Source: Cliona cf. orientalis
Taxonomy: Eukaryota > Porifera > Demospongiae > Clionaida > Clionaidae
DNA length: 64,000 bases
Direction of reading: 5' to 3'
Assembly: GCA_963930775.1 (NCBI GenBank)
Contig: OZ005704.1
Location: 2,294,001 to 2,358,000, forward strand
Within the stretch, counting starts at the first letter, position 1, and the number at the start of each line of letters is the position of its first letter. The translations under genes were made by a program, and so were the position numbers. Shown here one piece after another: positions 25,212 through 63,744 of this stretch. The notes under the pieces are model-generated. The model had not been told where the DNA came from. It worked only from the letters and a program-made list of their open reading frames with translations, and ran no database searches.

Positions 25212-25637
25212 ACACGGCTAGGATGGACGTCAACGGCGTGGCGACCGCGATATGGATATGGGTGGAGCCAGCTACAGCTGACTAGCATTACGTCATTCAA
25301 GTACTGGGCGTGCAAAAATATTGGCGGAATTAAATTTGGCGGCTTTAGCCTCAACCGCCAAACCGCCAAATTTAATTCCCCGCCAATATTTCTGGCTATA
25401 CGGTATGCCCAATGAGGTAGTCTCCAGACTGATTGAGTAAGGTATATTTTAAGGATCTATCAACCTATTTTCAATCAACAATGACTATGATGGATACTCC
25501 AATTCAGATCAAACTTTGGCCTCCATCAAGGGCGTATCGAGCCGCTACGGCGGCTCAATACGCCCTTGCCTCCATCCACTGTGTGTGTGCACGAGGTACA
25601 TGTACGTACATGTATGTATAGCATACATACCAAGGGT

Positions 25638-37042: not shown

Positions 37043-37127
37043 TTCTTCAACCAGGAATAGTCCGTCCCCAGGCCACCCCCACGTTTTCCATTGAAAACGT
37101 GGGAGTGGCCATTTCTCGGTTCGTTTT

Positions 37128-37452
37128 CAATGTTGCACCATAGATGGTTACCAAATTTTATGACACCGGTGTTGTATTGAACTCCACACTCATGGTAGCT
37201 AGTGCCTACATCAAGTCAGCTTACAGCCTCCAGGAGTCCTTGGGGACAATGAATCATTTACCAAGGACCTTGGGGTCCTTGGTAAATGATTCATTGTCCC
37301 CAAGCCCTTGGTAAATGACTCATTGTCCCCAAGGACTCCTGGAGGCTGTAAGCTGACTTGATGTAGGCACTAGCTACCATGAGTGTGGAGTTCAATACAA
37401 CACCGGTGTCATAAAATTTGGATTTTGTGTAACCATCTATGGTGCAACATTG
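37128..37452. repeat. long near-perfect hairpin upstream of the F-box gene
   Basis: Arms of about 140 bp (37128-37267 and 37308-37452) are almost exact reverse complements, from CAATGTTGCACCATAGATGG inward; only a few indels separate them (for example an extra GATTTTGTG near 37420). The short centre holds further copies of GGTAAATGAxTCATTGTCCC. It would fold into a very stable cruciform or RNA hairpin. Confidence 0.75.
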
Positions 37453-42687: not shown

Positions 42688-42693
42688 TTTATT
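42688..42693 (-). terminator. poly(A) signal of the megasynthase
   Basis: AATAAA on the minus strand, 25 bp after the stop codon at 42718. This supports transcription as a eukaryotic mRNA. Confidence 0.6.
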
Positions 42694-42717: not shown

Positions 42718-45700
42718 CTACTGCGTATTGAGCAGACAGGAAATAAAGTTGGCAAGAGCTTTTAAAGTTGAGTTTGCAGTAATATGTTGAATTACCAGTT
42801 TGGGACCAATGCGCTTGCGAATCAGATAAATCATCTGCAAGGCAAGTAGTGACTCCCCACCAAGTGACTTGAAATTATCGTTAGGTTGAATATCTTCCAC
42901 TCCGAGTAATTCAGTCCATATCTTCTTGAGTTCATCATAAATTTGTTCAATAGACACATTCACTGTTTCAATTTCTTTCACTGGATTGTCATAATAATTA
43001 AGTGTTTTCAATTCGACCAGTTCATATTTACTGTTACTAGGAGGAACATCCAATGGATTGGCACTGCAGACAAATAAGAATTTTTCAACGAAGCTACGTT
43101 CACGTTCTTCTTCTGGAAATGATAGCACTGAAGAAAAGCCAACATCATATAGTACTCTCTCCCACACTTGTGGTTCCATCATTGGTTCGTGAGGTCGGAT
43201 ATGATAATCCTGGAAGACCCACCACCCATCGAGAATTCCCCAGGTCAGTGTAGCCCACATTTCATTCTTTACACATTCAATGATGAATAAAATGCCCCTA
43301 TCATCTAAACAGTGCTTAAGATTGGATACAGCATCCATGATACTTGGAACAGCATGAATGACATTGTATGTCAACACTATGTCAAATGAACCAATGATCC
43401 CCTGTGCTGTAGGATTTTTTGTTATATCAAATGTGCAAAACTTCATCATGTGTGAATAACTGGTGAAAACTGTTTTGGCACGATCAATGTATGCTTTTCC
43501 GACATCTGTGAACCAGTATTCAATGTTATCAGATAAACAGATGAGCTTGTGAAGTAACTGCCGTGTAATCTGCCCAATCCCTCCACCTACTTGCAGTATC
43601 CTCACTTTCTCTCCTTTTGTAATGAGATTCCTAACATAGTCTGCTATGACTTGCACATACACATTACAGTAGATATCACCAAGAGGATCACCAATTCTGT
43701 CAAATTTGTACATAAAGTTCAAATTACCATCTGGAAACAATACCATAAGAGGGTCCATTTTCCCATGAAGCACATCTGCTAGATACTCGAAGCAATATAG
43801 AGGGAATCGAAATCTGTCTGCCCATTGAGGGTATTTTTCAGAAATTGAAGTGCAGATGGATTCAAGATTAGTATGTAAAATATCTTGACATTGGAATTTA
43901 AATGAATCTAGTGAGGATTTCTCACTGGCTGAAATTACCACTAACTTACATTTCAGAAGTTCTTTGATCATCACATAAAAAAATTTTCGATACTTTGGAA
44001 TCATGCCTGAGAGGGAAAATGCTGTATCAAACTTCACTTCTTTGTTGTTTTTGATATATTCACCTAAATTGGTATTGAGAAGAAACTTGACAATGATGGT
44101 GCAGCAAAATGTATCTTCAATTTTCTGTAATTCTTGTGGTGGCTGAAGTGGCAGCATTCTTACTATTTCTCTAGTCTCACTAACTTTTCTTTGAAGCAAT
44201 TCAACAAGCCCCTCAACTGTTTGAGTCATTGGCAATTGAGTATTGTAATCAAACCAGTGTCTACATTCATCATACATTGCTATAGGCACTCCAGGGATTC
44301 TTGGAATGTTATGTTGATGACCTTGAAAGAGTTTTTCAAAAGATATCACTGATTCCTGCAGGAAAAGCTGTGAACCTATAGACGAAAACTCTGCTGGTGT
44401 GTAGTCTGGACAGTGCACTTCAATATTACTCTCTGATTTGCTTAGCTTAATGAGATCATCATCACTCTCGATGGAACTTATCATTTCAATTGCTGTGAAT
44501 AATTGCTGTACTTTTGCTGCCGTTATCACCAATCGTACTTGAAAATGGCCAATCTTCATCTCAGAAATTGGTTTCAGCCGCATTGCTACCGTTACACATA
44601 GACTGGGGAGTAGGGTATTGATTGTGCATGAAACCATGGCAAACTTCAGATAGTGTTTGTACAGACTAATTTGCTTTTTGATGTGTTTCAAAGTTTTACC
44701 ATTGAGCAGCAGTGGATATGCATACTCTTGATCCTTGTCATTATTCAGACTGATGGAATTTAAACTTTCTGGCTCTGTATTTGTAGTTAGACACTCAGCT
44801 AAGATAATGTGACAGTTGGTGCCAGTCATTCCAGACGAATTCACTCCAGCGTATCTTCTTAAGGACAGCTTTAGGTCCCATGGGATAGTTTCTCTTGGGA
44901 TATATAGTGGCGAATTAGTGAATTCATGATGAGGTGTGTTGAAATCAGCGGTTGCTGGTATGTGCTTTGTCAATAGTGAAACCAAAACCTTAAATACTCC
45001 CAGTATACCTGAAAGAGAGTCAACATGGCCAAAGACACTTTTAGTGGAACCGATAGGTAGTGTATGGTTTCCATGATCACTGAGAAATATAGAGGATAGT
45101 GCTGACAGTTCTATTTGGTCTCCCAGTCTTGAGCCTGTACCATGAGCTAGCATGAAGGAAATGTCTGAGGCCTTCAGTCCGGCACTTGAGAGCGCATCTT
45201 TAATGACTCTTTCCTGTGAGATAGCAGATGGTGCAGTAATTCCATTTCCACGGCCAACACAATTGCTTATAGCACCCTTCACAATTCCATACACTATCTT
45301 TCCTTCCTTCAAAGCAGTACTGAGGGGTTCCAAGAACAAACCAAGGACACCTTCACCAACTGAGGCTCCAGGATCTTCACCAAACTCAAATAAACTATTC
45401 TGACTGAGAACTCCTGAACTTGAGGGAGAAAATATAATTTGAAGATTCACACCGCCAACGATAGCACCTTCACACTCTTTATTCCTAATTGAATCACAGG
45501 CACATTTCATGGCCATAAGTGATGAAGAGCAAGCTGTGTCAATAAGCATTGTTGGTCCCTTTAGGTCCCATTGATATGCTACTCGAGTAGCAATCATTCC
45601 TGGCATCAGTCCAGCCACACTTACTGGTTGCTTTGGGTGATTTAGTTCAGCATACCCAGTTTGATCAGGAGCCCCTACAAATACACCAATCTTCGAACCC

Positions 45701-48700
45701 TTCACCTTGTCAATACTTCTACCCTCTGCAAGAGCTTCAGTGGCAACTTCAAGAAAGATTCTTTGTTCTGGTAGCATGCACTTTGCTTCTCCAGGAGCAA
45801 TGTTAAAAAAGTGATGATCAAACTGATCAATTCTTTCCAGGAAAGCACCACGACATCCATTTATGTTCTGAAACGTTTTAGTTGGTAAGCAATTTAAGAC
45901 ATCAGTCTTCCTTAGGTCCGATAATTCTTGGAAAAGATACTCTCCTTTGTCCAGTGCCTCCCATAGCTCTGCAAGTGATGAAATTCCACCTGGTAATCTA
46001 AGTCCAACTCCAGTTATGGCTATATCATCAACACTGTTATTAGCAGGTGTTTGATCAGTAGTATATTTGTTAGTAGAAATGTCATTAATATAATCTGCCA
46101 AAGAATTGATACTTGGATAAGAAAATACATCCGCTATTTCTACATGATAGTCAGTTTCCTGCTTAATTAGTGTCACGAAATTGACAAGTATTAGTGAATG
46201 ACCACCTTGCTCCATGAAGGTGACATCACCATTGATACTGCTGATGTCAGGCAAGCCCATAGCTTTTGAAAAGAGAGCTTTCAATATTGCAACCGTGGGT
46301 GTATCATCTCTTTCATCATCTTTACTGGTATCCATTACCCCTCCAAGCTCTGATAGGGAAGGGAGTAATTCGTGATTAACCTTTCCATGTGCTGTGGTGG
46401 GTATTTTATCAACGATATGTACGAGATCTGGCAACATATAGTAAGGAAGGTGGTGTTTCAGATTGTCACGTAAGGTCTTACAGTTTAAGGCTCGCTCATC
46501 ACTTTCATTACATGGCACAATAAAAGCACAAAGAAATTTAACGCCGGAAGAATTGGTCAAAGGAGTAACACAGACTTCTTTGACTTCTTCAAAGAGATCA
46601 CTCACTTTGTTTTCAATTTCAGTGGTGCTGATCCTGAATCCTCGTAGTTTTATCACAGTGTCTAGCCTGCCAAAGATTTCAATATCCCCTGAGGGTAACC
46701 TGCAAGCTGCATCACCTGTTTTTATAGCTGAACACTTTGGATATTTCAGTTCAACTAGCCTAACATCACCAGAGGCCAAGACATTGCCGGTTATGTACAA
46801 CTCACCTACTGTTCCTATTGGACATGGCTGGAGAGTTTTTGAATCCAATACATGTAAATTTACACCAGGTAGAGCTTTTCCAATTGGAACTGTTCCAGTC
46901 CGAGTTGGTGCAGTTAAGTCACCCTCAAAAAATGATGAAGCAATTGTTGCTTCAGACATTCCATAAAAATTCATTATCCTTTGATCTGGTGTGAGCTTGC
47001 CTTTGATCTTGCTGAATACATGTGTTGGTAGTACGTCTGCAGCTAAAATGAAGATTCTAATAGATTCCAAATCAGTACAGTTGATATCATTGAAAATTTG
47101 CATGCCAAACTGTGGAGTGACATCCATAAAAGTAATTTTATATTTTCTGATAAGGTTGCTCAAGTAGGATGTATCAAATTGGAATTTCTCTGGACACATG
47201 ATAAGCTGACCTGGATAACATACTAAAGCACGTACAATGTCAGCAATAAAGACATCAAATGATATTGGTGCCCACTGAAGCAAGGTCATATCAAAGTCAT
47301 TTATATTGTAGACTAACTTCCAAGCATGCGCTATTATAGCAAGACTAGAGTGTGAAATTTTACAGAGTTTAGGTGTACCAGTAGTTCCTGATGTTCTAAT
47401 GACATAAGCTAAGCCATCAGTTTCAGTCGCTCTAGCTATCAGTGATACTTCAATATCAATCGAAGGGTCTAAAAAGTGCTGAACATTCAATATCGGACAG
47501 CTGCCCTTTACTATAGAATTCAATTTACTTGAATTGGTGTTTGTGAGCACAGCAGCTACTGAACATTGGTTGACTATGTCTTTCAGTGTAATACTGCAGC
47601 TGCTAAAAACTACAGGTAAAAAATGTCCACCCGCTTTCCAGATGCCAAGAGTTGATGCAATTATCAGCTCATTTTTCTCCATGACTATCACAACTGGATT
47701 TCTACTTAGGCTAAATTGGCTAATGTTCTGCTGTAGTCCAAGTGCAATTCTGTCAGCTCTATTATTGAGTTCTTTATAAGACAAAACGTTTTCTTCATAA
47801 ACAACTGCCAAGCGATTGGGATGTCTTGCAACGTTATTTTCAAATTGTTGGAGAACAGTGCCGCTCACATTAGGATTAAGCTCATTACTAAATGATTTCA
47901 AAAGCCTGCATTCTGATTTGGACAAAAGATTTGTATCATTAATTGTTTTATCGGCCATTAGCATTGCTGTGGTAAACACGTCCCTGATACCTTCCGATAG
48001 CCTGCTTACAATTCCGGCATCCATGATTTCTATGGCCCATTCTACGTGAAGGTCATAGGATGATCTTTGTCTATCACTACTGATGGTGAATGTAAGTGGA
48101 CACTTTGCATGTTTAGAAGGTACCTTCACTTCCTCCTTTGTTGTGACTGATGCTGAGAAATTGAATACTATGCAGCAAAAGGAAGAGTAATGCTTTCCAT
48201 GATCGGACCATAGTTTCCTGACTACTTCACTGAGTGGATATCGTGCATGACTTTGCACTGCTTTCCAGTTGTTGGCCACTGCTTGAATGTGCTCTCCTAC
48301 TGTCAGATTTTGATCAATGAATGCTCGAAATAAGATCACATTTTCAAATTGTCCATCCGTATTCAAAAACTTTTCTATTCGTGTTGTTACTGGAATGGCT
48401 ATGGTGATATCTTCTGAACCTAGATACCTCTGTAAAAGTAACAGTGTACAGGCTAAAGCATACTGGAAGTCTGTCACTCCTAATAAAGCACAGTACTTGG
48501 AGATAGCTTTGGCTTCATTTGAGGATATACTATAACTTTGGTGTCCTGCATGATAGGTGCTAGTACTATTCCAGGCTGATTCTGTTGGGGGTAAAATTGA
48601 TAAGCTAACTTCAGGTGGTAGGGTTGCAAACATTTCCTTCCAAAATACAGCACTATCACAATACTGTGATGACTTATGATAGATGCTTTCATCCTTAAGA

Positions 48701-50919
48701 TAATCAAGATATGACAAATCTGACTGGACAGGAGTTTTCTCCTCTGCATTAGACATAAGGTTCTGAAGGTCATGTAAAACATTACTTAGGGTGACTCCAT
48801 CAGCAATTATTTGATGAATATGAATAGCCAGTAAGGTTGACTGACCAGCCTGAAGGTGTCTAAATTTGACAAGTGGAGCAGAATGAATACTCATTTCAGG
48901 AATTGACTTGGTGAGATACTCTTCAGCACCAGTAAGGCTATCTACTGTTTCAATTAGAGGGTTATATTCCAGTTCATTACCTGAACTAAGTACAAAAGCA
49001 TGTGTATCACTATCTAATCCAATTCTGTAAGTCAAGATGTGATGCTGACTGACCAGCGATCGAAAAATCATTTCAGCAGAGCCTGCATGCTTTCCTGTGT
49101 GAGCTATTGTCTCAATGTATGCAGTTGATGTGACAGCTAATTGTTGTGTTGCCATAATTTGCATTTGAGCATTTGATACTGATTGGCTTAATCTTGTGCA
49201 TGTTCTGTTGGGTTCAGTTACTTCTTCACTCACCATAATATTGTCAGTGAGATGTTTGTCACTTGACCATGGATTCAACACATGAAATGCATAACTAGAT
49301 AGCAGAGGCACCTTTTTTGTATCTGAATAGAGCTCTATCCAGTTGACATTACTCTCATTTAGAAATGAACATGCAAATGTTGCCAAGTCAGTGCCTAGAC
49401 AATTCAAGCACTGGGTGTCAGTAAAGCTTGCCTTTAAGTTAGTAGCATACCCAAAATGAATACTGAGTACTCTGTTGTCATCATCTTTACTTATGCTACT
49501 GCAAAACATCTGGAGTGAAGTAGTCATTCTTTTCCACGAATTAGCATAGAAAATAGCACGGTGTTTGAGTGTAGAATGCTCTTTACCAACATTTATGGTA
49601 AAACAAACATCTTTGAGCAATCTATATGATTTTTCATCAGAGCACTCAAAATAGTGTAACAAATTCCTTGCAATCTGTAGAAGAGCTTGCTCTGAGTTGA
49701 CTGCAAGAGCTAATAACTGCATTTCATTATTGTTATCAATTCTCATGGGTGGACAGTTCTTATGAGGAATGTGCTCTTTGACAATGGCAGTTTGCAGGTC
49801 AGTTCCATTGCGATGGTCGATGGAATGGATACATGCACACCTACGAGATTTGCTACTGTGACCCTGCCAGTCTTGTACAGATGTACAAATATAAAGAGGT
49901 CCAGACAGCCATTTTGATTGATATGCCCTTCCCTCAGCAAAGCTGGCAAATTCGGATGGTAATTTACCTTTATGAAGACAAATCACAATTTTTACCAAAC
50001 CTGTTATGCCACTTTCATCGAAAATTGATTCAACACAACCAACTGGAATTTTTGATGATGTCGTGCATGAATTGAAAATACTAGAGATAGCAGCAGCTCC
50101 TACTGGATCACTCAAGTCAGCCTCGATATAATCTAACTGTTGGGGCAAAGTGCTTGCTAGCTTCAAAGCATGCAAAATCATACTGGCTACTTTTTTTGTG
50201 TTAGGTGTACCGAAATGACATACAGCAGTTGCTTCCAAAATGCCATAAATATAATCTCCACATGCCAATGCACTATGCAGCGACTTCAGTAGCACTGCAG
50301 TACAGATCTCCCCCTTGAAAGTAGAACTTGTTAAAGACTCCCTAGTCTCAGAACTAGACAAGATACCAAGTTTGATTCCCCCAGCGACTGCCATTTCACA
50401 ATCACTGCAAAGAAGTCCTTGGCATGCAAGATGGACTGCAAGTAGGGACGATGCATTGTTACTAATTGTAACTGCTGGACCTTTGAGGTCATAAACATGA
50501 GAAATTCGTGAAGATATGCAAACATTGTCATAATGAAAACGGTTTTGGCTCATTGTGCTGATAACATAGACACCTGTATTCGACCCCTTAATATTGGAAG
50601 CATAGCCAGCATCTTCAAAGAGCTCCCATGCAACTTCTAAAAAAATACGATGTTCTTCTGATTCAATACGCATGGGTTTGGGGGGAAAATTAGCCTGATC
50701 AATGCTTGGCTTAGGACATAATCCAAATGATAATTTCTTACTTTCATCCAATGGTTGATCATCAAATGCTGTTGTTGACTGATGACCATCAGATACAAGC
50801 TCCTGTACAAATTTCCTGTCATGCACAGTCAACCGCTTCCAGAAGTCTAGACATGAGTTAGTTCCAGGCAATCTCATTGCCATCCCAACAATAGCTACTG
50901 GAAACTTGCTGCTGGCCAT
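42718..50919 (-). CDS. intronless hybrid PKS/NRPS megasynthase (2,733 aa)
   Basis: Domain order with approximate residues. KS1 7-350: VAIVGMAMRLPG start, but Cys is replaced by Ala156 (SNNASS for TACSS) and the HGTGT and NIGH histidines are missing, so it is inactive. Linker 370-560 with a PTYPF-like end and no AT. Condensation 595-1010 with HQIIADG at 702-708, where HHxxxDG is expected, so the catalytic second His is Gln703. Adenylation 1030-1510: TSGTTGTPK at 1176, FDVFIAD, NFYGMSEAT, KTGD, GRLDTVIKLRGFRI, and a GK near the end; D235-equivalent present, suggesting an amino acid substrate. Carrier 1, Ser1575 (GGHSL). KS2 1625-2040 with all three catalytic residues (DTACSSS, Cys1797; AHGTG; FGH). 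Linker without AT. C-methyltransferase about 2380-2620 (ILQVGGGIGQ). Carrier 2, Ser2690 (GGESL). No KR, DH, ER, TE or reductase. It likely condenses an activated amino acid with a methylated C2 unit loaded in trans. The start at 50919 directly precedes the KS. Product unknown. Confidence 0.93.
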   Translation of the reverse strand: MASSKFPVAIVGMAMRLPGTNSCLDFWKRLTVHDRKFVQELVSDGHQSTTAFDDQPLDESKKLSFGLCPKPSIDQANFPPKPMRIESEEHRIFLEVAWELFEDAGYASNIKGSNTGVYVISTMSQNRFHYDNVCISSRISHVYDLKGPAVTISNNASSLLAVHLACQGLLCSDCEMAVAGGIKLGILSSSETRESLTSSTFKGEICTAVLLKSLHSALACGDYIYGILEATAVCHFGTPNTKKVASMILHALKLASTLPQQLDYIEADLSDPVGAAAISSIFNSCTTSSKIPVGCVESIFDESGITGLVKIVICLHKGKLPSEFASFAEGRAYQSKWLSGPLYICTSVQDWQGHSSKSRRCACIHSIDHRNGTDLQTAIVKEHIPHKNCPPMRIDNNNEMQLLALAVNSEQALLQIARNLLHYFECSDEKSYRLLKDVCFTINVGKEHSTLKHRAIFYANSWKRMTTSLQMFCSSISKDDDNRVLSIHFGYATNLKASFTDTQCLNCLGTDLATFACSFLNESNVNWIELYSDTKKVPLLSSYAFHVLNPWSSDKHLTDNIMVSEEVTEPNRTCTRLSQSVSNAQMQIMATQQLAVTSTAYIETIAHTGKHAGSAEMIFRSLVSQHHILTYRIGLDSDTHAFVLSSGNELEYNPLIETVDSLTGAEEYLTKSIPEMSIHSAPLVKFRHLQAGQSTLLAIHIHQIIADGVTLSNVLHDLQNLMSNAEEKTPVQSDLSYLDYLKDESIYHKSSQYCDSAVFWKEMFATLPPEVSLSILPPTESAWNSTSTYHAGHQSYSISSNEAKAISKYCALLGVTDFQYALACTLLLLQRYLGSEDITIAIPVTTRIEKFLNTDGQFENVILFRAFIDQNLTVGEHIQAVANNWKAVQSHARYPLSEVVRKLWSDHGKHYSSFCCIVFNFSASVTTKEEVKVPSKHAKCPLTFTISSDRQRSSYDLHVEWAIEIMDAGIVSRLSEGIRDVFTTAMLMADKTINDTNLLSKSECRLLKSFSNELNPNVSGTVLQQFENNVARHPNRLAVVYEENVLSYKELNNRADRIALGLQQNISQFSLSRNPVVIVMEKNELIIASTLGIWKAGGHFLPVVFSSCSITLKDIVNQCSVAAVLTNTNSSKLNSIVKGSCPILNVQHFLDPSIDIEVSLIARATETDGLAYVIRTSGTTGTPKLCKISHSSLAIIAHAWKLVYNINDFDMTLLQWAPISFDVFIADIVRALVCYPGQLIMCPEKFQFDTSYLSNLIRKYKITFMDVTPQFGMQIFNDINCTDLESIRIFILAADVLPTHVFSKIKGKLTPDQRIMNFYGMSEATIASSFFEGDLTAPTRTGTVPIGKALPGVNLHVLDSKTLQPCPIGTVGELYITGNVLASGDVRLVELKYPKCSAIKTGDAACRLPSGDIEIFGRLDTVIKLRGFRISTTEIENKVSDLFEEVKEVCVTPLTNSSGVKFLCAFIVPCNESDERALNCKTLRDNLKHHLPYYMLPDLVHIVDKIPTTAHGKVNHELLPSLSELGGVMDTSKDDERDDTPTVAILKALFSKAMGLPDISSINGDVTFMEQGGHSLILVNFVTLIKQETDYHVEIADVFSYPSINSLADYINDISTNKYTTDQTPANNSVDDIAITGVGLRLPGGISSLAELWEALDKGEYLFQELSDLRKTDVLNCLPTKTFQNINGCRGAFLERIDQFDHHFFNIAPGEAKCMLPEQRIFLEVATEALAEGRSIDKVKGSKIGVFVGAPDQTGYAELNHPKQPVSVAGLMPGMIATRVAYQWDLKGPTMLIDTACSSSLMAMKCACDSIRNKECEGAIVGGVNLQIIFSPSSSGVLSQNSLFEFGEDPGASVGEGVLGLFLEPLSTALKEGKIVYGIVKGAISNCVGRGNGITAPSAISQERVIKDALSSAGLKASDISFMLAHGTGSRLGDQIELSALSSIFLSDHGNHTLPIGSTKSVFGHVDSLSGILGVFKVLVSLLTKHIPATADFNTPHHEFTNSPLYIPRETIPWDLKLSLRRYAGVNSSGMTGTNCHIILAECLTTNTEPESLNSISLNNDKDQEYAYPLLLNGKTLKHIKKQISLYKHYLKFAMVSCTINTLLPSLCVTVAMRLKPISEMKIGHFQVRLVITAAKVQQLFTAIEMISSIESDDDLIKLSKSESNIEVHCPDYTPAEFSSIGSQLFLQESVISFEKLFQGHQHNIPRIPGVPIAMYDECRHWFDYNTQLPMTQTVEGLVELLQRKVSETREIVRMLPLQPPQELQKIEDTFCCTIIVKFLLNTNLGEYIKNNKEVKFDTAFSLSGMIPKYRKFFYVMIKELLKCKLVVISASEKSSLDSFKFQCQDILHTNLESICTSISEKYPQWADRFRFPLYCFEYLADVLHGKMDPLMVLFPDGNLNFMYKFDRIGDPLGDIYCNVYVQVIADYVRNLITKGEKVRILQVGGGIGQITRQLLHKLICLSDNIEYWFTDVGKAYIDRAKTVFTSYSHMMKFCTFDITKNPTAQGIIGSFDIVLTYNVIHAVPSIMDAVSNLKHCLDDRGILFIIECVKNEMWATLTWGILDGWWVFQDYHIRPHEPMMEPQVWERVLYDVGFSSVLSFPEEERERSFVEKFLFVCSANPLDVPPSNSKYELVELKTLNYYDNPVKEIETVNVSIEQIYDELKKIWTELLGVEDIQPNDNFKSLGGESLLALQMIYLIRKRIGPKLVIQHITANSTLKALANFISCLLNTQ

Positions 50920-51901
50920 ATTCTGGTGTCAGTTCAGCTCTGCCTAGCTACATGTGCAAAAGAATGATCGGACCAGGTATATTATAGAAATGACTATAGG
51001 AATCCTTCCTTAAGCCTATTTAGAAGAGCACAGAGTAGGACAATAGAATGAGGTAACAATTAGACTTACTGGTCGGAATAGTAAGATGAATAAATGGTGG
51101 TCATATTATCCTTTTTGTTATTTACTAAACACCAGCTCATTAGACTATATGCTTCCTGACTGTTGAGTAACAATTCTACCGGCATTTTAGAAGAGCACAG
51201 AGACAGTAGGACAATAGGATGAGGTAACAATTAGACTTACTGGTTGGAATAGTAAGATGAATAAATGGTGATCATATTATCCTTTTTGTTATTTAAGAAC
51301 TACATCTAAACAGCCAGCTCATTAGACTATATGCTTCCTGACTGCTGGGTGACAATTCTACCGGCATTTTAGAAGAGCACAGAGACAGTAGGACAATAGA
51401 ATGAGGTAGCTAACAATTAGACTTACTGGTCGGAATAGTAAGATGAATAAATGGTGGTCATAACTATTATGCTTTTTGTTACTTAAGAACTACATCTAAA
51501 CAGCCAGCTCATTAGACTATATGCTTCCTGACTGCTGGGTGACAATTCTACCGGCATTTTAGAAGAGCACAGAGACAGTAGGACATTAGGATGAGGTAAC
51601 AATCACACTATACTATAATATATTTGACAATGGTATGTGGTTTTGTGATCCTAGCTATTGGTATTAATTTTCAGTGCAATTAAGAGCAGTGACAGTACGT
51701 AGGAAAGTAGCTAGCACAATAATTAGCAGCTAAGACTTTACTTGTTGGAAGTGTAAGGTGCTATATTTGTCAACGGTATTCCCAATTTGTTAGGAGCAGT
51801 ACTGCTGTCATCAGAACGTGAATTGAACTATAACATATAGGAATAAAGACATATATTATATCAAAGTCAGTAAATCTTTAAATCGATGATTCAGGCTCAC
51901 A
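50920..51901. promoter_or_regulatory. divergent intergenic region of megasynthase and P450
   Basis: 982 bp separate the two start codons, which point away from each other, so both promoters should lie here. Most of it is the tandem repeat listed next. The rest is AT-rich with no site I can name. Confidence 0.5.
51018..51602. repeat. tandem repeat, 3.3 copies of 168-190 bp
   Basis: Units start at about 51018, 51186, 51367 and 51557 (partial), each with TTTAGAAGAGCACAGAG, GAGGTAACAATTAGACTTAC, GGAATAGTAAGATGAATAAA, CAGCTCATTAGACTATATGC and ACAATTCTACCGGCAT. Identity is high; differences are short indels (for example GAACTACATCTAAACAG is missing in unit 1). Confidence 0.9.
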
Positions 51902-54900
51902 ATGGTACCATCAACAATTGAGGTCTTACTGATGTGTTCATTAGGTGGCATTCTATTCATAAGCTACCTATTTTATTGGTAAGTCTAGCTTACTTAACCT
52001 TTAGGGATCGAACGGGCTAGGGAGGAGCTAGTTAGTAAGACTAGTCAGTTTAAATAAAGTCCAGGCAGTCCTGTCACAGATCTGTGACTATAGTCCTGTG
52101 AGTGTTAATGCTGTCTTAGAAGCTAGTTAGTAAGACTAGTCAGTTTAAATAAAGTCCGGCAGGCAGACCTGTCACAGATCTGTGACTATAGTCCTGTGAG
52201 TGTTAATATTATTATATCCTAGCTTAGCCAATCGCTAATAATATATGAATTCCAGTAGGCTAAAATTTACAACAAGCCAAGTGTAGAGCCTCAAGCATAA
52301 TAATTATGCATGCATGTAACCCTACATAATTATGCGTGGTGATACATGCTCTCCTGAAGCTTGAGCCTTGGATACTTCAAGTTTTAAACATCAGGACGCT
52401 GCATTTATGCCTGATCCGAGTTATATGATCCATGCATGGCACGAAGAATGATGTGTAAAATGAGCTGCATGACAGGACATGCATTAGCTGTTCAAAGTTC
52501 TAATTAACGCGACATGAAAAAATAATTACGAATGTTGGGTGGCGCGCCATTAGAGCGTGAAAATTACCCTTCGCGACCAGGTGGTGCGCAAAATTTGTAC
52601 ACAAAGGTATAGGGCCGCGCGCGTGGGTGGGCGCATTTAAATAGAGCGCGTGAAAAATTGCACTTCAGGCCGAGGTGGCGCATCTCTTAGAGAGGCACGT
52701 TAACTAGATCGGCTACGGTATACCGTATTTCCTTGTATTTTTCCCGCGTGTACGTGCTATTAGTTTGAAGTGTCTCAGGATACGGGTACAGTTTGAGGGC
52801 GGTAACAAAACAAGGGCGGGTTCAATTAATGCCTGAATACACTGCACTTGCGTATACATCAAATAAGCCCTAGCGCACGTGTTAATCGAATTGCATGTGA
52901 CTACTGCGGTACCGGCTACTGGATGGACGAATTCTAGGTACTCCGAAATCAAGAACACCAGAGAGTAGCTATAAACTTGAACTCGTCATCTTAGGTTGCT
53001 TATATAGTTGGCTCACGATCAATCGCTGGAGCGCTAGCGTGGGCTATGGGCGCGGGCACGGGCGTGCTACATGAACTGATATTTGTGGGCGTGGTCGCGC
53101 TTTTATAAACGCTTACAGGGGCGTATTTAGGCTGTTTGTTGGTTGTCTGGAAACCCCCCATGGCCTCAAGTTTCGTGTATATCACAATGGAAAATTAATC
53201 ATAGTATCACTGTTAAAAAGTACAAATGGAACCTCCAGGATCTTTGGGCTTCTTTATCTGTGTTCAAGAATAGCTTTTTGCTGCTTCTTAGACTTAATTG
53301 CTTTGGCACACAGAATCGAGCTGCAGTCAAGTTGAGCTGGTAGCTGCTCGCGTTTATCAGTGGGCGTGGCATCGAAAATTTTTCGCGCGCGCTTATGCAG
53401 AAAACTCACCAACCTGAATCTTGCATACGCCCCCTGGCATATCCTTTATTAAGACCACTCCAATAAAATGTTATGTTTCTGGTTGAGTGGTTTCTTCAAC
53501 TGTGATGCGGGCGGACGGGTTATTATTATTGTTGTTATGGGTGGGTGTGGCCTGCGCGACTAAAATTAGAAATTGCAGGAGATCTCAGGGTCTTCAACTC
53601 GAATAATTTTCCATTGAAAAGCTACCTTTGAAAGGACTTCAGTACCACGCTGGTATTCAGCAACATTTTATCGGTGTATATTCGCGTGTAGCTAGCTACC
53701 TAGTTCGTGCTTAGCAAGTAGACTCGTGGACTTCGACAATCGGCAACCTTTTGACCCCGGCTCGATCAGCGCTAGTGCGCCTCAGTGTATAAAAAGGATG
53801 GTATCACAATAATAATATTGGGGGGGGGGGGGGTTTCCTAAAAAAAAAAACACGTGGGCGGGTGACCAGAAACACATCATTTTATTGGAGTGACCTAAAC
53901 GCATACTACCTTTCCACTTACCGCTATAAGCGCATACGCTGATAGACGGCATACTAGGTCGGTTTATGCCTCATCGATGACGGTGACCCCTGCGATCTTA
54001 GCTTGTTACCGTGGAGATAGCGCATGCACGAGTAGTGTGTACCAGGCCCTCTCCTCTCCTTCGTAGGGCCTGGAAACGAGGCTATAGTTCAGTCAAGTTT
54101 AAAAGTTACTCGTCCTCTATAATCAATTCGTCGTCTTCGAACTCTTCATCACTTGCAAAAAAGGATCCGCAGCGTCATCCAAGTTGTCCTCATCGTCATA
54201 AAGCCTCAGTGGAGATTTCTGCTGCGGCTGCCACCCTTCCTTCTAGGATTCAATGTATGTGGGTGATTTTGACAAATTTTAATATGCCAGAACTGCTGAC
54301 ATGTTTTGATGAGAAATCCCAAGATTTATGCAGAAAATCCTGGCAAATGTATTGGCCTTATTGGCTGAAAAATCCCAATATTCAAGGTAATTTTAGCGCT
54401 CAAAAATCGGAGTGTTCGGACAAACTCCGAGTTTTGGGCAGCACTGTTAAAATAAATATGCCGAGGTGCTACGCACGCACGAATTTTGTGCACGTCCAGC
54501 CCCGCCCACTCAGTTATTCCGTACGCGCATGTGTGGACTATTGAAGGGTGGCCGGGGTTATTTCGAACTCAATGCTAGAGAAGAGGTGCAGAAAGAATTC
54601 AAGGAAATACGATAGTTATTTCTATGCTCAATAGATTAAAGGATCCACTATGTACATGCAGTATGTATAGTGGTATAGCTTGTGCATGCATGCCATCTGT
54701 GAGTGCAGGTTTGTTCTCGCTTCCTATCGGAGTCTTAAGAAATGTGGAATCAAAGGTCCCAAACCACAATTCTTCTTTGGTAATTATAAGGAAAGAATGA
54801 AAATGGTATATATGCAAAGTTGTACACATGAACAATCAACAACTACTCTTCCTCACAATGCATACAGAATCTAGTAGAACATGATAACTATCTCACAAAA

Positions 54901-57900
54901 ACCTACGGAAAAGTGTCTGGGTATGCTAACAAATTAAACTATATCATTGATATATATATATAGCTATATGGAATTCCAATGCTTATAATATTACTCAACC
55001 TCAAATACATTGTCAATTTTGTTGCAAATCGATGGGCAACCTTCGAAGTATGATCAATATAAATGGCACGAATACATGGTCAAGCTCAGATACGAATGCA
55101 ACTGTCAAGCCAATATAATATTATTGTCAAATGCCAATGCATTGTCAGCACTATCGAATGCAAACGCACTGTCAAATGCGATTGCACAGTCATGTAGTGT
55201 GGTCAACTGAATTCCAGCAAGTCAAATTCCTGTGGTCAACTCAAGTTGTCATTAGTCTTGCCGTCAGACTGTCAGCAGGCAGGTTGGACCCAGGGGGATC
55301 ATGATCACCAGAAGTTATGTAATAACATACATAGTAAGGTTGAAATGCAATCAATGTGTACATGCTTGGTAAATTTTGCGAGACTGACTATTAATGCATT
55401 TGCATTCGATAATGCTGACAGTGCATTCGCATTTGACAATGTATTGGCTCGATAAATGCATTCACATTTGAGCTTGACCATGTACTTGTGTCATATTTTG
55501 ATCACACTTTGAAGATTGCCCATAGCTAAATTGACAATGTATTTGAGGTTGCCCATGTATTTGCAACAAAATTGACAACGTATTTGAGTTTGATAATTTT
55601 GTCAGCATTGGAATTCCATAAAAATATAGTAATGTTGATATAATATTATACTATTGGAATAAACAGGTTTTATGTTGGACGACAGCCACACATCTTGATC
55701 AGTGACTTGGATATGATTAAGCAAATAATGCTTAAGAACTTTCAAAACTTTCCAGATCATCCGGTTAGTTAGTAAAATACAATATTTTTGTAGCTAGCTA
55801 AGTAAAAAGTTTCTTATGTGCATGAAAGCTGATGGAATAGAATTATTCTACTATATGTTCCCCCATAAAATGCAATACACAGCCCACGCCTGGCATCTAT
55901 ATTACCAGTGATCAGAAACTCACTGAACTACCAATGGCCACGGGAGATGCTTGGAGTCGTATGAGAAGAATCCTCTCCCCGTCATTTTCTGTATTCAGGC
56001 TGAAAGCAGTAAATACTATAACAGTATATAATATAATGTATGAAACTTTTACATAGATGCCAGGAGTGCAACTGCAGACAGCTGTTTCGGCCTAATTGGG
56101 CCTCGTCAGTGCAGTGTAGCACAAGGTGGGCCTGCCACCTCAACAGTAGACCCTGGCACCGAGGGGCTTAAATAAGCTCAGAGTCCTAAAGTACTTGTGG
56201 GTTTCATAAAAGCTCTCAAAACTTCTTTAATTAGCCCAAATTAGGCTTCCATGAGACATGATCCAAGCTATTTTGATAATAATAAGGATGGGAGCTAATT
56301 AACAGGCTAGGGTAGTTGGGAGCTCAATCTGACCAATTATCTAGCTAATGTTTGGCAAACAATCTTCTTGCATTATTAATGAAGTACTATTGTACAAAAC
56401 CCTCGGCGTGCAGCACTAGCTTTTCAAGTAAGGCAGAAGCAATGCAGCTTGCAGTGCTGTGTATGCTGTGCATGCAGATACACTAGCTAATTAGATCTAA
56501 TTAACCACAAGAATGTATTAATTACAATACTACACGCTACTACGTAATTGCAGCGGACCACGTGCATGCTTAGTCAGCAGAATTAGTACACAAGCCTAGT
56601 CAGGCTAGCTGACAGTTTAGGTATGTTCAGTGATGAATCATTCGAGTTATAGGACCTATTGCTAGACCTACCCACTATTCTTTTTGAAAAGAAGCCATCG
56701 GTGTCTCTTTTGTTCACCGAGAGTTCGTCAGAATAAGCGAAGAAGGCACTGAGGCGATCAGCAAATGTCACCAGAACTTTTGAACAGAGCGATTTTAACG
56801 AAATCCACACAGTATACATATCTTGAGAACACCATAAGAAGCTTAACAGCACCATGTTTTCAACGTATAAACGAGGTATGAAGCAGCTAGCGTGGTAACA
56901 GACAGACACACAAACACACACACACACCACACACACACACTACCATAACCCTCGCGCATGCGCCAAGGGTTAATTAGATCACCTCAGCCAAGCACAACAG
57001 TTTCGTGCAGAGGTAGCTAGCTATAATAGCAGTTCACTATTAATTTTCTGTGAGTTGCCCCTTCACTACTCCTAGATTAAATTAGCCTCAGAGATGATCA
57101 TGAAGGTGTTCTTAGATATCTAGTACAATATTATTTGTGGTATAGTGTATACTATATTATGATCTTCTATGAGTATTGCAACGAAAAATGACACTCTATG
57201 GATAGACGGCTGTCCCCTTAAAGCGGGGCAAACTGAATTCGCTGCTTATCGTCACCGCCCGCATGGATTTTCAGATTTTTTCCAGATTTCGCATCCAATA
57301 CAGTAAACATACGACACTTTGAGCCCCACCCACCAATCGCGCTAATTAGAGAGCGGGGCCTCGGCGACTTCGAGGTTCGAGCATAGCTTTCCAGCACTCT
57401 CTGCTCGTTTGAAATATGAAAAATGACCACCTGCCCGCATGCAAAATCGAAATCTTTGTGACGATAAACTGAATTTAGTTTGTCACGCCTAAGTTAGGCC
57501 ACTCCAAATAAATTTCCTGTTTCCCGTCCACCGCCCGCATCCTTTTCTGGCATGTCACAAAATTTTCCATTATTAGTACTTTTGTATGTATGCAATATCC
57601 GCATTTACTTTTGTACACGTAGTGTTCTTGCCCCAAGTGAGTGATAATTAATTAGTTTAAGTGCTTCCTGTAGGCCTTGCTACTATGTAAATAATGGGAT
57701 TTACCGCCCGCCCGCATACTACATTAGTTATTTCCAGGACGGGAAACAGGAAATTTATTTGGAGTGGCCTTATGTGGTCACCGTGATAAAAATTATCTTT
57801 TTTAGGGGCTAAGCACATAAAAATTTCTATGTTCCATTCCACATTCTGCTTTTTATATCTTACTGAATGAATTCATTATTCTAGAGGCCGATCCCCCTAA

Positions 57901-60900
57901 CCAGCCTCTGAATAATGAAATAGGTGACATGGGCGGATCTAGGGTAGTTCACAGGGTGCCTGTGAACCCCCCCCCCCTCCATCCTTCACTGATTTAGAAT
58001 GGCAAATAACTTGCTATATTTCTTACTTATGAACCCAAGGCTTCAAACCAATGAACTATAATACATATCTGATAAACATTCTGTACTAAATCAGACTAAA
58101 TCAACCTCAAAAGTTGAGCTTTCATGGTTCTCTAGCAGTTTGTCACGATGCAGTAGTACTTGCTGCCCGTTTGTGGGCGTGGTTTTCCGAAAATGGGCGT
58201 GGTTTCCCATTAGCGCGCATGCGCATCCACGCAGTGAACCTCCCCCCAGGAAATCCTGGATCCGCCCCTGGGTGAAATAGATGAAATAGGTGAAGTAGGT
58301 AAAATTATAATAGCTGCTACCTCTACCTGAGCCCGTGACTCCATGAGATGGTGTGCCATTTCTAACCAGTCACTTCATATTGATATTGTTGTGGTTTAGT
58401 ACAATACCTGCATGTCCAATATTATATATTCCCACTTGTTAATAATTATCATGATCATGCTTGCACCCATTATATGTGCATATTACATAAATTTCTATCC
58501 AGATGTTACCATTACTAAGCAAGAGCACTTGCTCTCTGATTGATTGTATCAATGAAAAAATTATACCTGGAGAAAGTTTTAATGTCTTCAGGTACTTCTA
58601 GAATGCACTTCTTAGTGCCAGTAATCTATTCAATCTTGATCTGCAGTGCATTTGGCCCCTTTGCCATAGAAGCTGTTTTGATCTCATCCTTTGGATATGC
58701 TACTGACAGCAGAGATGATCTTAGGCAATTATGCAAATGTGTGGGTATACTTGTGAGAAGTATATCTGAAGGGCAAATTGAAAGAGATGTACTACTCTAT
58801 AGTAAATCACTATGACTACATGATATCATTCATGTTAAGTCACTAAACTGCATCATTCACTTTTTTCTTTTTTCTTTTTTTTTTACTGTAGGTAATTTTC
58901 CATGGCTCTTACCGTTACAACATGTCATTTCAAAATTCTCTGAGACCAGCAAATCAATTGCCATCCTTGAGACCTTTGCTCTCAATCTGATTAAAGAAAG
59001 GAGAAGGACTAGGCATGCAAGTGAAGTTAGTAGCTGTATGTAATAATTAGTTTACTTACGTTGAATACTTTATCCGGACAATATGCCATGCATGAAAATT
59101 CAGTAGGTTTATCTTCTACTACCAATCCAAACCTAAGGGGAAAACCATCTCACTGCCTGCTCAGGCAAACCTAAACCTAATTTAAGCAAAAGGCAGAGCC
59201 ACATAGGTGCCTAGCCTTGAGAACTAGGGGTGGTAGGTTGAAAAGCTCTTTTGTTCCATGGAAACTCTCCCTACCCACCTAAGTGGCTCATGGACACGGG
59301 CAGCATGCATATATGACCATAATTACACATGGCAGGGAAATTAACAGAATCTCCAGTCAGTATTGTTACTAGCTACTACATAATTTTGTAGGGGTTAACT
59401 CACGAATCCCGGGTGTTCATGCAGGAGCTGGAGTAGTCTACTTCTTTAGGCTCTGGAACTTTTTGTATTAGTTGTTGTAACCAATGGCCCTAGTTATATA
59501 CGTTTATAGGTTGCTATCAGTATGGTAATTAGTGTTATGATGTAACTATAATTTGATGTCAGACTATTGGCGCCCCTTAAACTAAGATTTTTTTTGAAGA
59601 CCTAGATCTAATGTTTACTTTATTCGGCAGACTACTGATAGCTACAGTGGGAAGGCAAATACCATCCTGTACGTGCTTTCTAATGGAAATTTTAAATTTG
59701 GAAAAAATCTCAGGATACCTGCTACAAAATGTTTTAAAAGTAGTAACTAGTTTATCGAATAAAAAACCCTGTTTGACTAATCTACAGGTTAATTTGTGGT
59801 GTCTGGTATAAATGCATGCATGGCTAGTTGATATGTATTATTATACTATTGTGGCTGATTATAATAATTTTCAGTTCAAAGATGTGTTGCAACTAATGAT
59901 TGAAGCAAGTGATCAGTCACAGACTGAAAAGAGAATGGATGACGAAGAAATTGTGGCAAATATTCTCAATTTTTTTATTACCAACTATGATGCTCTGGCC
60001 ATTCATTTGTGCTACACAATTTATCTGCTGGCACTTAATTCTGACATCCAAGAGAAATTACAGCTAGAGATAGACAAATATTTCATCAATAAAAATGTAA
60101 TTAGAGACATGCATGATATTGCATGATATGTAACTATTGGTTGGACATCTATAGCTCTGATAAAATTACCATTAACACATGATATGCAGGATACAGCACT
60201 TTATGATGCAGCTCAGGAGATTGAATACCTCAATAATATCACTCAAGAATCTCTTCGTCTCTATCCTCCTAACTATGAGTAATAATGAAACTCAATATAA
60301 TAATCCATGTTCTGGTAATATAAGTGATTAATATCATGCAGAACTGACCGTTGCTGCAAAAAGACCACTGTTGTGGGTGGAGTTACTATTCCTGAGGGAG
60401 CCACCATCATTATTCCAATATACACAATCCATCACAATCCTTCATATTGGAAAGATCCTGAGAAGTTCAATCCTGATAGGTATATTCAGTAGCTAACGTA
60501 CAGTGCAAGCTATTATGATGGTAGTTATAATTATGATGTGAATATAGCCATACATAGCATAGACATATACAAAGAAAGCAGGAATGTTACCAGATTTTCA
60601 GAGTAGTTTGCTACAACACGGTGACAAGCACATCATGTCTCACTGCCCTCAATGTTTCTTCCATGTTTGTTAGCACAGTGCATATTAATATATTATGTCA
60701 TTAATCATGTAGGTTCAAAGCTGAGGAGAGAGAAAAGCAACCTCAACACTGTTTTCTTCCATTTGGTTTGGGTCCTCGTTCCTGCATAGCAATGAGGTTT
60801 GTTCAGCTGGTGGCTAAGGTAACCATCATTGAGCTCCTCAAACGGTACTCCTTCTTGTGCTCATCAGACACAGAGGTAATATGAATGCAGTGTTGTCTAT

Positions 60901-61030
60901 GGATATGGAATAAGAAATGTAAATCGTTTTGCAGGTACCTCTGCAGCTTCAAAGCTTTGGTATTGTCATGAGACCAAAGAATGGCATATATCTCAAAGTG
61001 ATTGCTCGATCATCTAATCCCACATTATAG
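51902..61030 (+). CDS. cytochrome P450, CYP3-clan-like (13 exons, 497 aa)
   Basis: Exons: 51902-51978, 54709-54805, 54868-54920, 55667-55763, 55883-56008, 58503-58591, 58647-58759, 58892-59025, 59875-60096, 60190-60278, 60342-60479, 60713-60875, 60935-61030; every junction is in phase. Exon 1 encodes the membrane anchor (MVPSTIEVLLMCSLGGILFI...), followed by the GIKGPKP hinge. C-helix W-S-R-M-R-R-I is present; K-helix ExxR is E356-R359; the heme loop is FGLGPRSCIAMRF with Cys436. The order and spacing, including the FGPFAIEAVLISSFG segment, resemble the CYP3/CYP5 clan. The I-helix, normally AGxxTT, reads TNYDAL at 298-303, so the oxygen-activating Thr is Ala302 and the Gly is Asn299. It would sit in the ER membrane and use CYP reductase if it is a monooxygenase. 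Its divergent neighbour is the megasynthase, suggesting tailoring of that product. Confidence 0.88.
52027..52207. repeat. tandem duplication in P450 intron 1
   Basis: Two copies (52027-52121 and 52122-52207) of GCTAGTTAGTAAGACTAGTC through CACAGATCTGTGACTATAGT to GTGAGTGTTAAT. They lie just after exon 1. Confidence 0.85.
53453..53895. mobile_element. MITE with GACCACTCCAATAAAATG ends
   Basis: Imperfect 30-bp inverted ends (GACCACTCCAATAAAATG to TTTCTGGT, and CATTTTATTGGAGTGACC). Located in P450 intron 1. The GGCCACTCC ends of 57496-57770 suggest the same superfamily. Internal poly-G near 53820. Confidence 0.6.
54967..55620. mobile_element. fold-back MITE in P450 intron 3
   Basis: Ends TATGGAATTCCAATGC and GCATTGGAATTCCATA. 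Much of the interior is also inverted: ACATTGTCAATTTTGTTGCA near 55010 against TTGCAACAAAATTGACAACG near 55560, and AATGCATTGTCAGCA blocks around the centre. Confidence 0.7.
56399..56970. mobile_element. Harbinger-like MITE, second copy, in P450 intron 5
   Basis: Starts ACCCTCGGCG and ends CGCGCATGCGCCAAGGGT, like 22983-23616. The right 170 bp are closely similar in both (AAACGAGGTATG, AGCGTGG, AACAGACAGACACAC). The CA-rich open frame on the minus strand is repeat sequence. Confidence 0.6.
57496..57770. mobile_element. MITE with perfect 34-bp inverted ends, P450 intron 5
   Basis: AGGCCACTCCAAATAAATTT running on to CCTGTTTCCCGTCC is exactly inverted at 57737-57770. The centre holds CCGCCCGCAT blocks on both sides. 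Confidence 0.8.
57930..58268. mobile_element. MITE with GGGCGGATC ends, P450 intron 5
   Basis: Begins TGGGCGGATCTAG and ends CTGGATCCGCCC, with inverted subterminal blocks around AGTTCACAG, GTGAACCCCCCC and GTGAACCTCCCCCC. No coding capacity. Confidence 0.55.
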
Positions 61031-62020: not shown

Positions 62021-62373
62021 ATAATATAATACGCTTACGTGGATAGGAAACGTTTCCGTATACTATAATAATTCGCGTTTCCATCCTCGTAATCCGTATA
62101 GCGGACCGCGTGCACAGTAATATCCGGACTTGCATGGCGCTTCTTACCACCAACTTGAGCTATACTTACCACAAACGAGCTATAAAGCCACTACTCTCGA
62201 AGGTAGCTAAGCGAAAATAACGATTGTATTTGACAGTAGATAAATACTTTACCTGCACTGGAAGCGAGAATATGCCCCACAATTATGAACACATGCAATG
62301 CATCAAGCAGCTGCATAGTACTTCAAGTTCAGAACAGAATTGAAGTATAAATAATATTAATATTATTATCGTA

Positions 62374-63744
62374 ATGTGCAGTTTGTTCAGTATGGCAGAA
62401 GCAGTACCCGCAGTTGAGAATGAGTCTACTGAGAGTGATTATTCCAGTGAAGAATCTGAGCCGGAGTATGATACTGAGGAACCAGCTCTAGGAGCTTTGA
62501 ATTTGTCTGATAGCCAGGATAGTGATGGAGTACACAAATTCACATTCTTGGAGATTTTTGGACAGTTGAAAGAAGATCCTGTAATAGACTCAGATGTTGG
62601 GCCAGCTGTATTGGAGTTGCTAAAATGCATCAAAGAAAACTGTGATGATCCTTCAACCCGGCAACTTATATCGAGCCTATGCATTCGTGCACAATCATGT
62701 GTGAATAAAGCAAGTGGATGCAAGCTAACATCATCAATTGGAGCACGAGTTTGGCCGGCACTACATCAGCTAAGACTTAATGCTGATATCCAACGACAGT
62801 GGAAGCATCACTTATCAACAATATGCAGTGACGCTGATTTAATAAAGTATAGCATTCATGCTCTTCAGATTTTACTGGACAGGCTCGTGAAATTGTTGAT
62901 CAGTAAGAGGAAGGGAAGTTTAAATCCAGCAACTGCACCAGCACCAAGTACCAACCAGATAACATTACGAGAAGAAAATGCAGTCCATTATATGGCAGGC
63001 TACGTGACTACAAAGCTCATCAAGCGCTACCAGAAGAAATCAGCTAATAAAGCAACCCAGAAAAAGAATCGTATGTTTGTGTCTGTTTTGAAAGAGATGG
63101 TGATCAGTAGAATAGATGTAGATATTGGAGATTACGATGCAGTGGAGTGGACAGAACTGATTGACCGTGGTGGGTTGACCCATGTCAATAATGAGGTAGG
63201 TTAATTCTATGGTGCATGTACATAATTTGTAGCTATAAACTTTGCCCTAGGACCTAAGTAATTATATAATAGCAGGAGCACATGAGCTGCCTAAAGGAGT
63301 GTCCAACTGAGCTGAGTACATGTGTACATGTATCAGATCTAGATGTGTTAGGCAAAGTTCATTCGTACTGCTTTACCTTATATGGAGTGGGCAGCTGCAG
63401 GGTATTAGTGTGGCTTGTGCAAAAGCTATTCACTGCAACAGCTGTACATTCCAAATAAGGAAGAACAGACTAAGTGCATATGCTACAGCCAACCCTACCG
63501 TATAGTCGGACGCTTCTTGGCGGCTCATATGCTCCTGATAATGGATGGACTGTATCACATATACCCAGTATTCTGTATTATAATTAGCAACTACATAGCA
63601 ATGGGTATTATGCTTGCTGCCATACATGTACAGGTATTGGACTTCATGAAATCAGTTGAGTACAAAGCTCGCCAACACCTCAGCACTACGTCACTTCAAC
63701 CCAATGAGGACCATCAACATGCCATCATTGAAGATGTTTTATAG
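62374..63744 (+). CDS. transposon-derived gene, interrupted by an in-frame stop
   Basis: Exon 1, 62374-63195 (274 codons): an acidic Ser/Glu-rich start (true start may be Met at 62392), then ENAVHYMAGYVTTKLIKRY and WTELIDRGGLTHVNNE. Exon 2, from 63634 after TACAG, joins in phase 0 as VLDFMKSVEYKARQHL. The frame stops at TAG 63742-63744 yet continues open afterwards to TAA near 63969, with equally protein-like sequence (LLKEVVKLWTTIRCNSFAKC). The YxAGYVxxKL and GGLxHxNxE patterns recall C-terminal regions of P-element- or hAT-like transposase genes; I cannot name the family. It is probably a decaying element copy, and the motif array just upstream may be its terminal region. Confidence 0.5.

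Follow-up and report, generated by a model that had tools for sequence, protein, structure and literature searches.

A probable animal-encoded, acyltransferase-less hybrid NRPS/PKS gene of bacterial type, with front domains that have lost catalytic residues, head to head with a CYP3-type P450 gene

The window analysed here, a stretch of 64,000 nucleotides of contig OZ005704.1 (assembly GCA_963930775.1, positions 2,294,001 to 2,358,000), carries on its minus strand a single-exon gene (42718..50919) that encodes, from ATG to stop, a hybrid nonribosomal peptide synthetase/polyketide synthase (NRPS/PKS) of 2733 aa without an acyltransferase (AT). Its frame and Pfam matches give the order ketosynthase (KS1), condensation (C), adenylation (A), peptidyl carrier protein (PCP), second ketosynthase (KS2), methyltransferase (MT) and acyl carrier protein (ACP), that is, KS-C-A-PCP-KS-MT-ACP. 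Judging from its sequence, we lean towards considering this megasynthase an ancient hybrid of bacterial type that has become domesticated in an animal's nuclear genome, probably that of a demosponge, with a working core A-PCP-KS2-MT-ACP whose product would be made in the steps given below. Such domestication would be reflected in the absence of introns, the animal-type CpG decay, the full frame that has been kept, and the reduction of KS1 and C to non-catalytic parts.

The stop-to-stop frame comprises 2736 codons on the minus strand (42718-50928), with an in-frame TGA ahead of the first ATG at 50919 and a TAG stop at 42718-42720; the residue numbers used here count from the start of this frame (P0001), and are three higher than those counted from the Met. 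The chance of a 2733-codon open frame is about log10 P = -71, taking the triplet stop frequency of 0.058 from 1-36 kb of the window, and a polyadenylation-type AATAAA signal lies 24 nt beyond the stop on the same strand (42688..42693). At an E threshold of 0.001, the 15 Pfam families listed for the protein include KS twice, C, AMP-binding with its C-terminal domain, two stretches of PP-binding, and a methyltransferase, and none of them is an acyltransferase, ketoreductase, dehydratase, enoylreductase or thioesterase (TE) family. Because no AT family was matched, and because the spacing from the end of KS2 (about aa 2044) to the CurJ-like MT region (from aa 2242) is too short for an AT plus linker, the module is regarded as AT-less. 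No AT or other biosynthetic family was found either in 37 further open reading frames (ORFs) of the window, nor was AT found in the spliced P450 protein, the rest of the window being unscanned; the genes of an animal pathway need not cluster. With C-A-PCP and KS-ACP modules both present in one protein, the content is that of an NRPS/PKS hybrid. An earlier note on this DNA had proposed an 8.2-kb hybrid gene with a complete frame and a poly(A) signal, and we found both, its coordinates being correct to within a few bases; its description as an assembly line holds for the hybrid domain content and passes over the front of the protein, where KS1 and C have lost catalytic residues, only A-PCP-KS2-MT-ACP looking intact.

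The animal character of this sequence is seen directly in its dinucleotides. Across codon positions 3|1, the megasynthase has a CpG observed/expected ratio (o/e) of 0.28 and the P450 exons one of 0.12, with 14 bacterial PKS/NRPS coding sequences from 13 loci spanning 0.52-1.14, and the TpG/CpA ratios are 1.34/1.62 and 1.56/1.60, respectively, against 0.86-1.09/0.87-1.40 in the same bacterial sequences. We read this CpG loss, together with the TpG/CpA excess, as a probable trace of long exposure to CpG methylation; A. queenslandica is reported to be highly CpG-depleted, with sponges differing greatly in CpG content (PMC7385117). Since the megasynthase shares the CpG depletion and the TpG/CpA excess with the P450 exons and differs from all 14 bacterial genes, bacterial contamination appears unlikely. 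We give very little credence to the related explanation that a bacterial gene of a symbiont or contaminant was fused to an animal contig through misassembly. The single exon and the bacterial-type domains would fit such a fusion, as would the bacterial nature of the relatives found, though these came from collections with prokaryotic records only, and terminator-like hairpins at 42.3-52.0 kb are about twice as frequent as in shuffled sequence (10 vs. a mean of 5.1, sd 2.2). Against it stand not only the dinucleotide pattern of the ORF, which is that of the P450 exons and lies outside the bacterial range, but also the AATAAA close to the stop, the sigma-70-like sites of the same region, which are at shuffle level (33 vs. 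a mean of 31.1), and the identity of KS2 to 51 bacterial KSs, which does not exceed 39%. The earlier proposal of a host-encoded rather than symbiont locus is thus sustained by the methylation-type CpG decay in the megasynthase, by the spliced P450 1 kb away, and by animal neighbour genes.

The domain order and the residues lost or retained are read directly from the minus strand. KS1 with its C-terminal linker (49489..50907; Pfam and KS alignment) has lost its catalytic residues: in a 16-row KS alignment, its Cys column is a gap, which is alignment-dependent and could also be read as a substitution, its first His is replaced by Asp with the following five residues absent, and its second His is missing together with three adjacent residues, whereas the catalytic Cys and both His are as expected in the 15 other rows, KS2 among them. 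Over 402 core KS columns, 47 gaps are found in KS1 vs. 9 in KS2, and a structure prediction of KS1 from a four-row alignment was uninformative (mean pLDDT 46.7). In the C domain (48034..49182; Pfam and alignment), the HHxxxDG motif reads HQxxxDG (HQIIADG at aa 705), with Gln in place of the second, catalytic His. The A domain (46381..47844; Pfam and motifs) keeps its core motifs, with TSGTTG at aa 1179, the A4 FD within FDVF at aa 1224, and the A10 Lys, and the carrier Ser is kept both in the PCP (46087..46284; Pfam and GGHSL, aa 1575) and in the C-terminal ACP (42730..42981, approximate limits set by eye round the motif GGESL, aa 2690). KS2 (44797..46029; Pfam and alignment) has its Cys/His/His intact (TACSSS, HGTGS, GHVD). 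The domain of C-methyltransferase type (43105..44205; Pfam and structure-database match) has CurJ as its closest solved structure, matching the CurJ C-methyltransferase with 142 bits over 367 residues, with CurJ, AprA and DisA ranking before fungal MTs, and it keeps the CurJ-aligned His and Glu, which we take to be the catalytic dyad. The KS, C, A and carrier motifs used here are the ones that matter in those families. Read off the alignments by hand in PheA numbering, the code of the A domain is D-V-A-Q-I-A-F-I-A-K, and no substrate is predicted from it; a proline-like reading by way of known codes is not claimed.

Because KS1 and C have lost catalytic residues and the other domains have kept theirs, A-PCP-KS2-MT-ACP is a plausible working core. 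The same losses (three of three catalytic residues in KS1, the catalytic His in C) would also suit a decaying or repurposed pseudo-synthase that makes no ketide and serves as a scaffold or as an amino-acid activator, with an Ebony-like use of A-PCP, whose motifs are kept, and the P450 partner without its I-helix Thr would agree with this as well. We think this unlikely, given that the Cys/His/His of KS2, the His/Glu of MT and both carrier Ser have been kept while KS1 lost its own residues, which is hard to explain with an idle KS2, and that the frame is open across 2733 codons.

Domain chemistry allows an activity, a substrate, a product and its release to be proposed for the working core that we favour. 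First, a phosphopantetheinyl transferase of the host would prime the PCP and the ACP, the A domain would adenylate an alpha-amino acid and load it onto the PCP, and a separate malonyl transferase acting in trans would load the ACP. KS2 would then accept the aminoacyl chain for one decarboxylative condensation, with the incorporation of one malonyl unit, and MT would methylate the alpha carbon. The resulting gamma-amino-beta-keto thioester would have to be released without a TE, and since the amine of such a thioester can attack it intramolecularly, the simplest outcome would be cyclisation to a 5-substituted 3-methyl tetramic acid, the other option being an enzyme in trans. The product may then be tailored by the head-to-head P450.

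This P450 is encoded on the plus strand (51902..61030) by a CYP3-type gene of 13 exons and 497 aa, supported by an exon model, Pfam and a structure-database match; its 12 introns are all GT-AG with consistent phases, and its stop is at 61028-61030. The spliced protein scores 284 bits with Pfam p450, its best solved matches are CYP3A4/3A7/3A5 (250-260 bits) with the next family at 130 bits, and it keeps the ExxR motif (ESLR) and the haem Cys loop, so that it belongs with CYP3, as the earlier note had said when describing a spliced CYP3-clan P450 with animal-type introns. Vertebrate CYP3A genes have 13 exons, the same number as this one. Exon 12 (60713..60875) encodes the haem-binding loop FGLGPRSCIAMR, in which the haem Cys is kept and the residue two past it is Ala, and not Gly as in vertebrate CYP3A. 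The I helix, in exon 9 (59875..60096), has TNYDAL aligned to the AGYETT of CYP3A4, and is without the acid-alcohol Thr, which is also absent in some non-oxygenating P450s. Eight first-exon candidates were found at 50.9-54.7 kb, of which the exon at 51902 offers the strongest membrane anchor, with 16 of 18 residues as against 15 for the next, at 53468. On the minus strand of intron 5 (56071-56115), the type I hammerhead ribozyme of Rfam (RF00163) is matched with 40.4 bits, the gathering threshold being 34.

The two start codons are separated by 982 bp (50920..51901), a region with a CpG o/e of 0.31 of which 585 bp are a tandem repeat of 190 bp x 3.3 (51019..51603). Of the shared divergent promoter proposed previously, the head-to-head arrangement and the 982-bp ATG-to-ATG distance are borne out, but the gap is mostly tandem repeat and CpG-poor, and a CpG-rich block is found inside P450 intron 1 (52501..54600, o/e 0.80-1.54 per 300 bp), where it is possibly an alternative promoter or a young insertion. 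Co-regulation of the megasynthase and the P450 is possible from this layout.

Concerning origin, KS2 is, by its matches, of the bacterial modular type and not animal-FAS-like (FAS, fatty acid synthase). Among the best 60 of 149 matches to solved structures, it scores 233 bits with CurL, 229 with EryAIII, 216 with PksL, 195 with Probable polyketide synthase 16 (which we take to be a Dictyostelium protein), 177 with psoA, 162 with LovB and 160 with animal FAS, the top row, 7zma, summing two KSs (195, 215). The KS of animal-FAS type that characterizes nematode PKS-1 and the animal FAS-like PKSs is thus not what is found here, with 233 bits for a bacterial modular KS vs. 160 for animal FAS. The identity of KS2 to the 51 bacterial KSs averages 35% (maximum 39%), compared with 44% among the bacterial KSs themselves. 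In a tree of 52 KSs, which holds KS2 and 51 of its 54 matches and is bacterial apart from KS2 (matches with a query span below 331 or on the minus strand were dropped, and loci L007-L010 were excluded from the search), KS2 falls in a 12-row set with six AT-bearing, four "noAT" and one hybrid KS (99/99), where its neighbour is a Lewinella KS (88/67); these labels are crude, "noAT" meaning that no GHSxG occurs at 480-800 aa in frame and "hybrid" that an A match lies within 900 bp upstream. The gene would presumably be old, and its transfer would have run from bacteria to the animal. With tblastn, 2525 plasmid records match the megasynthase, all below 60% identity and at 23.8-28.7% among the 40 matches listed; 18 of these 2525 records were compared, plus 4 of 290 in a second search. 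Among six candidate stretches from the genome-contig search, one weak relative was found, in a Lewinella metagenome-assembled genome (34% in the best segment), and the viral contigs searched with the protein gave no relative; three repeat patterns taken from the window likewise had no match in the viral contigs.

The deep divergence of KS2 from every bacterial KS tried, and its good score with Probable polyketide synthase 16 (195 bits), would also fit an old eukaryotic, non-bacterial lineage of hybrid synthases kept in a few animals or protists, with no bacterial-to-animal transfer in the host line, for which the scattering of NRPSs over animal phyla described in PMC10531068 also speaks. We regard this lineage as rather improbable, because bacterial modular KSs score best with KS2, and because the MT matches CurJ, AprA and DisA ahead of fungal MTs.

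Several observations count against an ancient, domesticated hybrid of bacterial type, and should be kept in mind. The branch of KS2 is long (1.9), and neither its grouping with the other 40 KSs (p-AU 0.387) nor a place within the hybrid-KS clade (p-AU 0.137) is rejected; since these alternative placements stand, more than one bacterial donor is conceivable, and the AT may have been lost either before the gene arrived or afterwards. The phylogeny of KS2 suggested as a check in the earlier note was run here with bacterial KSs and gives KS2 no single firm place among them. CpG depletion is uneven: values per 2-kb block of the window span 0.20-0.99, the P450 introns reach 0.70, and the window as a whole has a CpG o/e of 0.51. 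Selection on the megasynthase is deduced from its open frame, a single copy having been seen, and the loss of motifs in KS1 and C could signal a role other than that of a synthase. Codon usage was dropped as a host test, given that the correlation of relative synonymous codon usage between the megasynthase and the P450 (r 0.86) is nearly equalled by a Lewinella PKS gene (0.84), and that the F-box ORF of the window gives 0.10.

Among known systems, hybrids in animals have been described in nematodes and rotifers, but an AT-less KS-C-A-PCP-KS-MT-ACP whose front domains are dead was not encountered in the open-access literature searched. PKS-1/NRPS-1 of C. elegans, which make nemamide, are likewise an animal-encoded hybrid, whose domains are diverged and out of order and whose partners act in trans; in contrast to the single 2733-aa protein without AT and TE found here, they are two multi-domain proteins with TE domains, and the genes of that system are spread across the genome (PMC8363725). 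The PKS domains of C. elegans are reported as most likely animal-FAS-derived (PMC10531068), so that the comparison with nemamide drawn earlier is sound as regards rarity and fails as regards kinship, KS2 being here of bacterial type. The PKS-NRPS clusters of bdelloid rotifers resemble this locus, as described, in being bacterial-type hybrids in an animal genome, one of them flanked by a P450, and differ from it in their large number per genome and in the predicted product of the focal cluster, a cyclic heptadepsipeptide (PMC11258130). Fungal TAS1 is also a small eukaryotic NRPS-first hybrid (C-A-PCP-KS), and its product, tenuazonic acid, demonstrates that such an enzyme can make a tetramic acid, though with the reactions in another order: in TAS1, which lacks MT and ACP, the C domain joins acetoacetyl-CoA to Ile and ring closure falls to the KS (PMC4640141), whereas here the C is without its catalytic His and MT-ACP follow the KS. 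In the Sandaracinus plasmid pSa001 (our locus L002), the order A, KS without AT motif, MT is the same, but it is split over two adjacent proteins, the KS-MT one being annotated as an alpha/beta fold hydrolase, and a halogenase and HMGS-type genes come next; in the tree, the plasmid KS belongs to the hybrid clade, apart from KS2, with a common clade not rejected.

Whether sponge natural products are made by the sponge or by its microbes is a long-standing question, for which this locus offers a concrete, testable case. Sponges and ctenophores are reported to be the only animal phyla investigated that lack PKSs, and 896 transcriptome assemblies of sponges yielded no KS enzyme of type I (PMC10764717); if the host is a sponge, the megasynthase contradicts that report. 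The survey filtered out KS contigs of bacterial, fungal, plant or algal taxonomy (PMC10764717), a filter that could have discarded a gene like this one. Porifera are likewise absent from the list of phyla with NRPSs in PMC10531068, whose main text leaves sponges unmentioned. The word polyketide is absent from the main texts on prokaryotic genes of A. queenslandica (PMC4784904) and of a compendium of transfers to animals (PMC13342648), and no description of a sponge-encoded hybrid PKS/NRPS was found in the open-access literature searched. antiSMASH clusters have been seen in sponge assemblies, with possible genuine transfers called worth study (PMC10542158), and sponge-made alkaloids have been demonstrated for the oro bundle, where common animal enzymes make them (PMC12833800). 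The megasynthase gene may already sit in public assemblies, unannotated or as a hypothetical protein. Tentatively, then, and on somewhat weaker footing than the domesticated hybrid favoured above, we suggest that this could be the first type I KS enzyme encoded by a sponge: a bacterial hybrid synthase of ancient origin, reduced inside an animal genome to an amino-acid/ketide synthase that performs a single extension, fronted by a pseudo-KS and a pseudo-C, served by a host malonyl transferase and accompanied by a P450 without classical oxygen activation. If so, the animal itself, and not its microbes, could make a small amino-acid-derived natural product, part of the sponge chemistry credited to microbes would be animal-made, and surveys that drop bacterial-looking contigs would miss such genes, which the CpG test can tell from contamination without reads.

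As to the surroundings, an exon series on the plus strand at 5418-15635 matches NIDO, Calx-beta, EGF_CA and tyrosine kinase (5.4-15.6 kb) and resembles a receptor tyrosine kinase of unusual make-up; domains of these kinds appear among the receptors of the sponge Halichondria panicea in a figure legend (PMC8242945), which lends weak support to a sponge host. We consider a sponge likely in view of the composition, of this receptor-kinase-like neighbour and of the earlier note. The minus strand further carries a tRNA-Lys(CTT) at 20592-20664, a DDE_1 transposase match at 23744-24571 with an overlapping open frame at 24534-25217 that has no Pfam match, and the F-box/FBA ORF at 36095-37126, a single frame with a GC3 of 0.55 and a codon usage unlike that of the P450 and the megasynthase. 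Directly upstream of the latter, an inverted repeat with 124-nt arms that are 97% complementary (37151-37421) overlaps a short tandem repeat, and beyond the P450 there is a 286-aa open frame on the plus strand (62344-63204) without a Pfam match. Over the whole window, the hexamers TGCATG/CATGCA/GCATGC occur 81/75/52 times, compared with 14.2/13.8/9.5 expected from base composition, a five- to sixfold excess.

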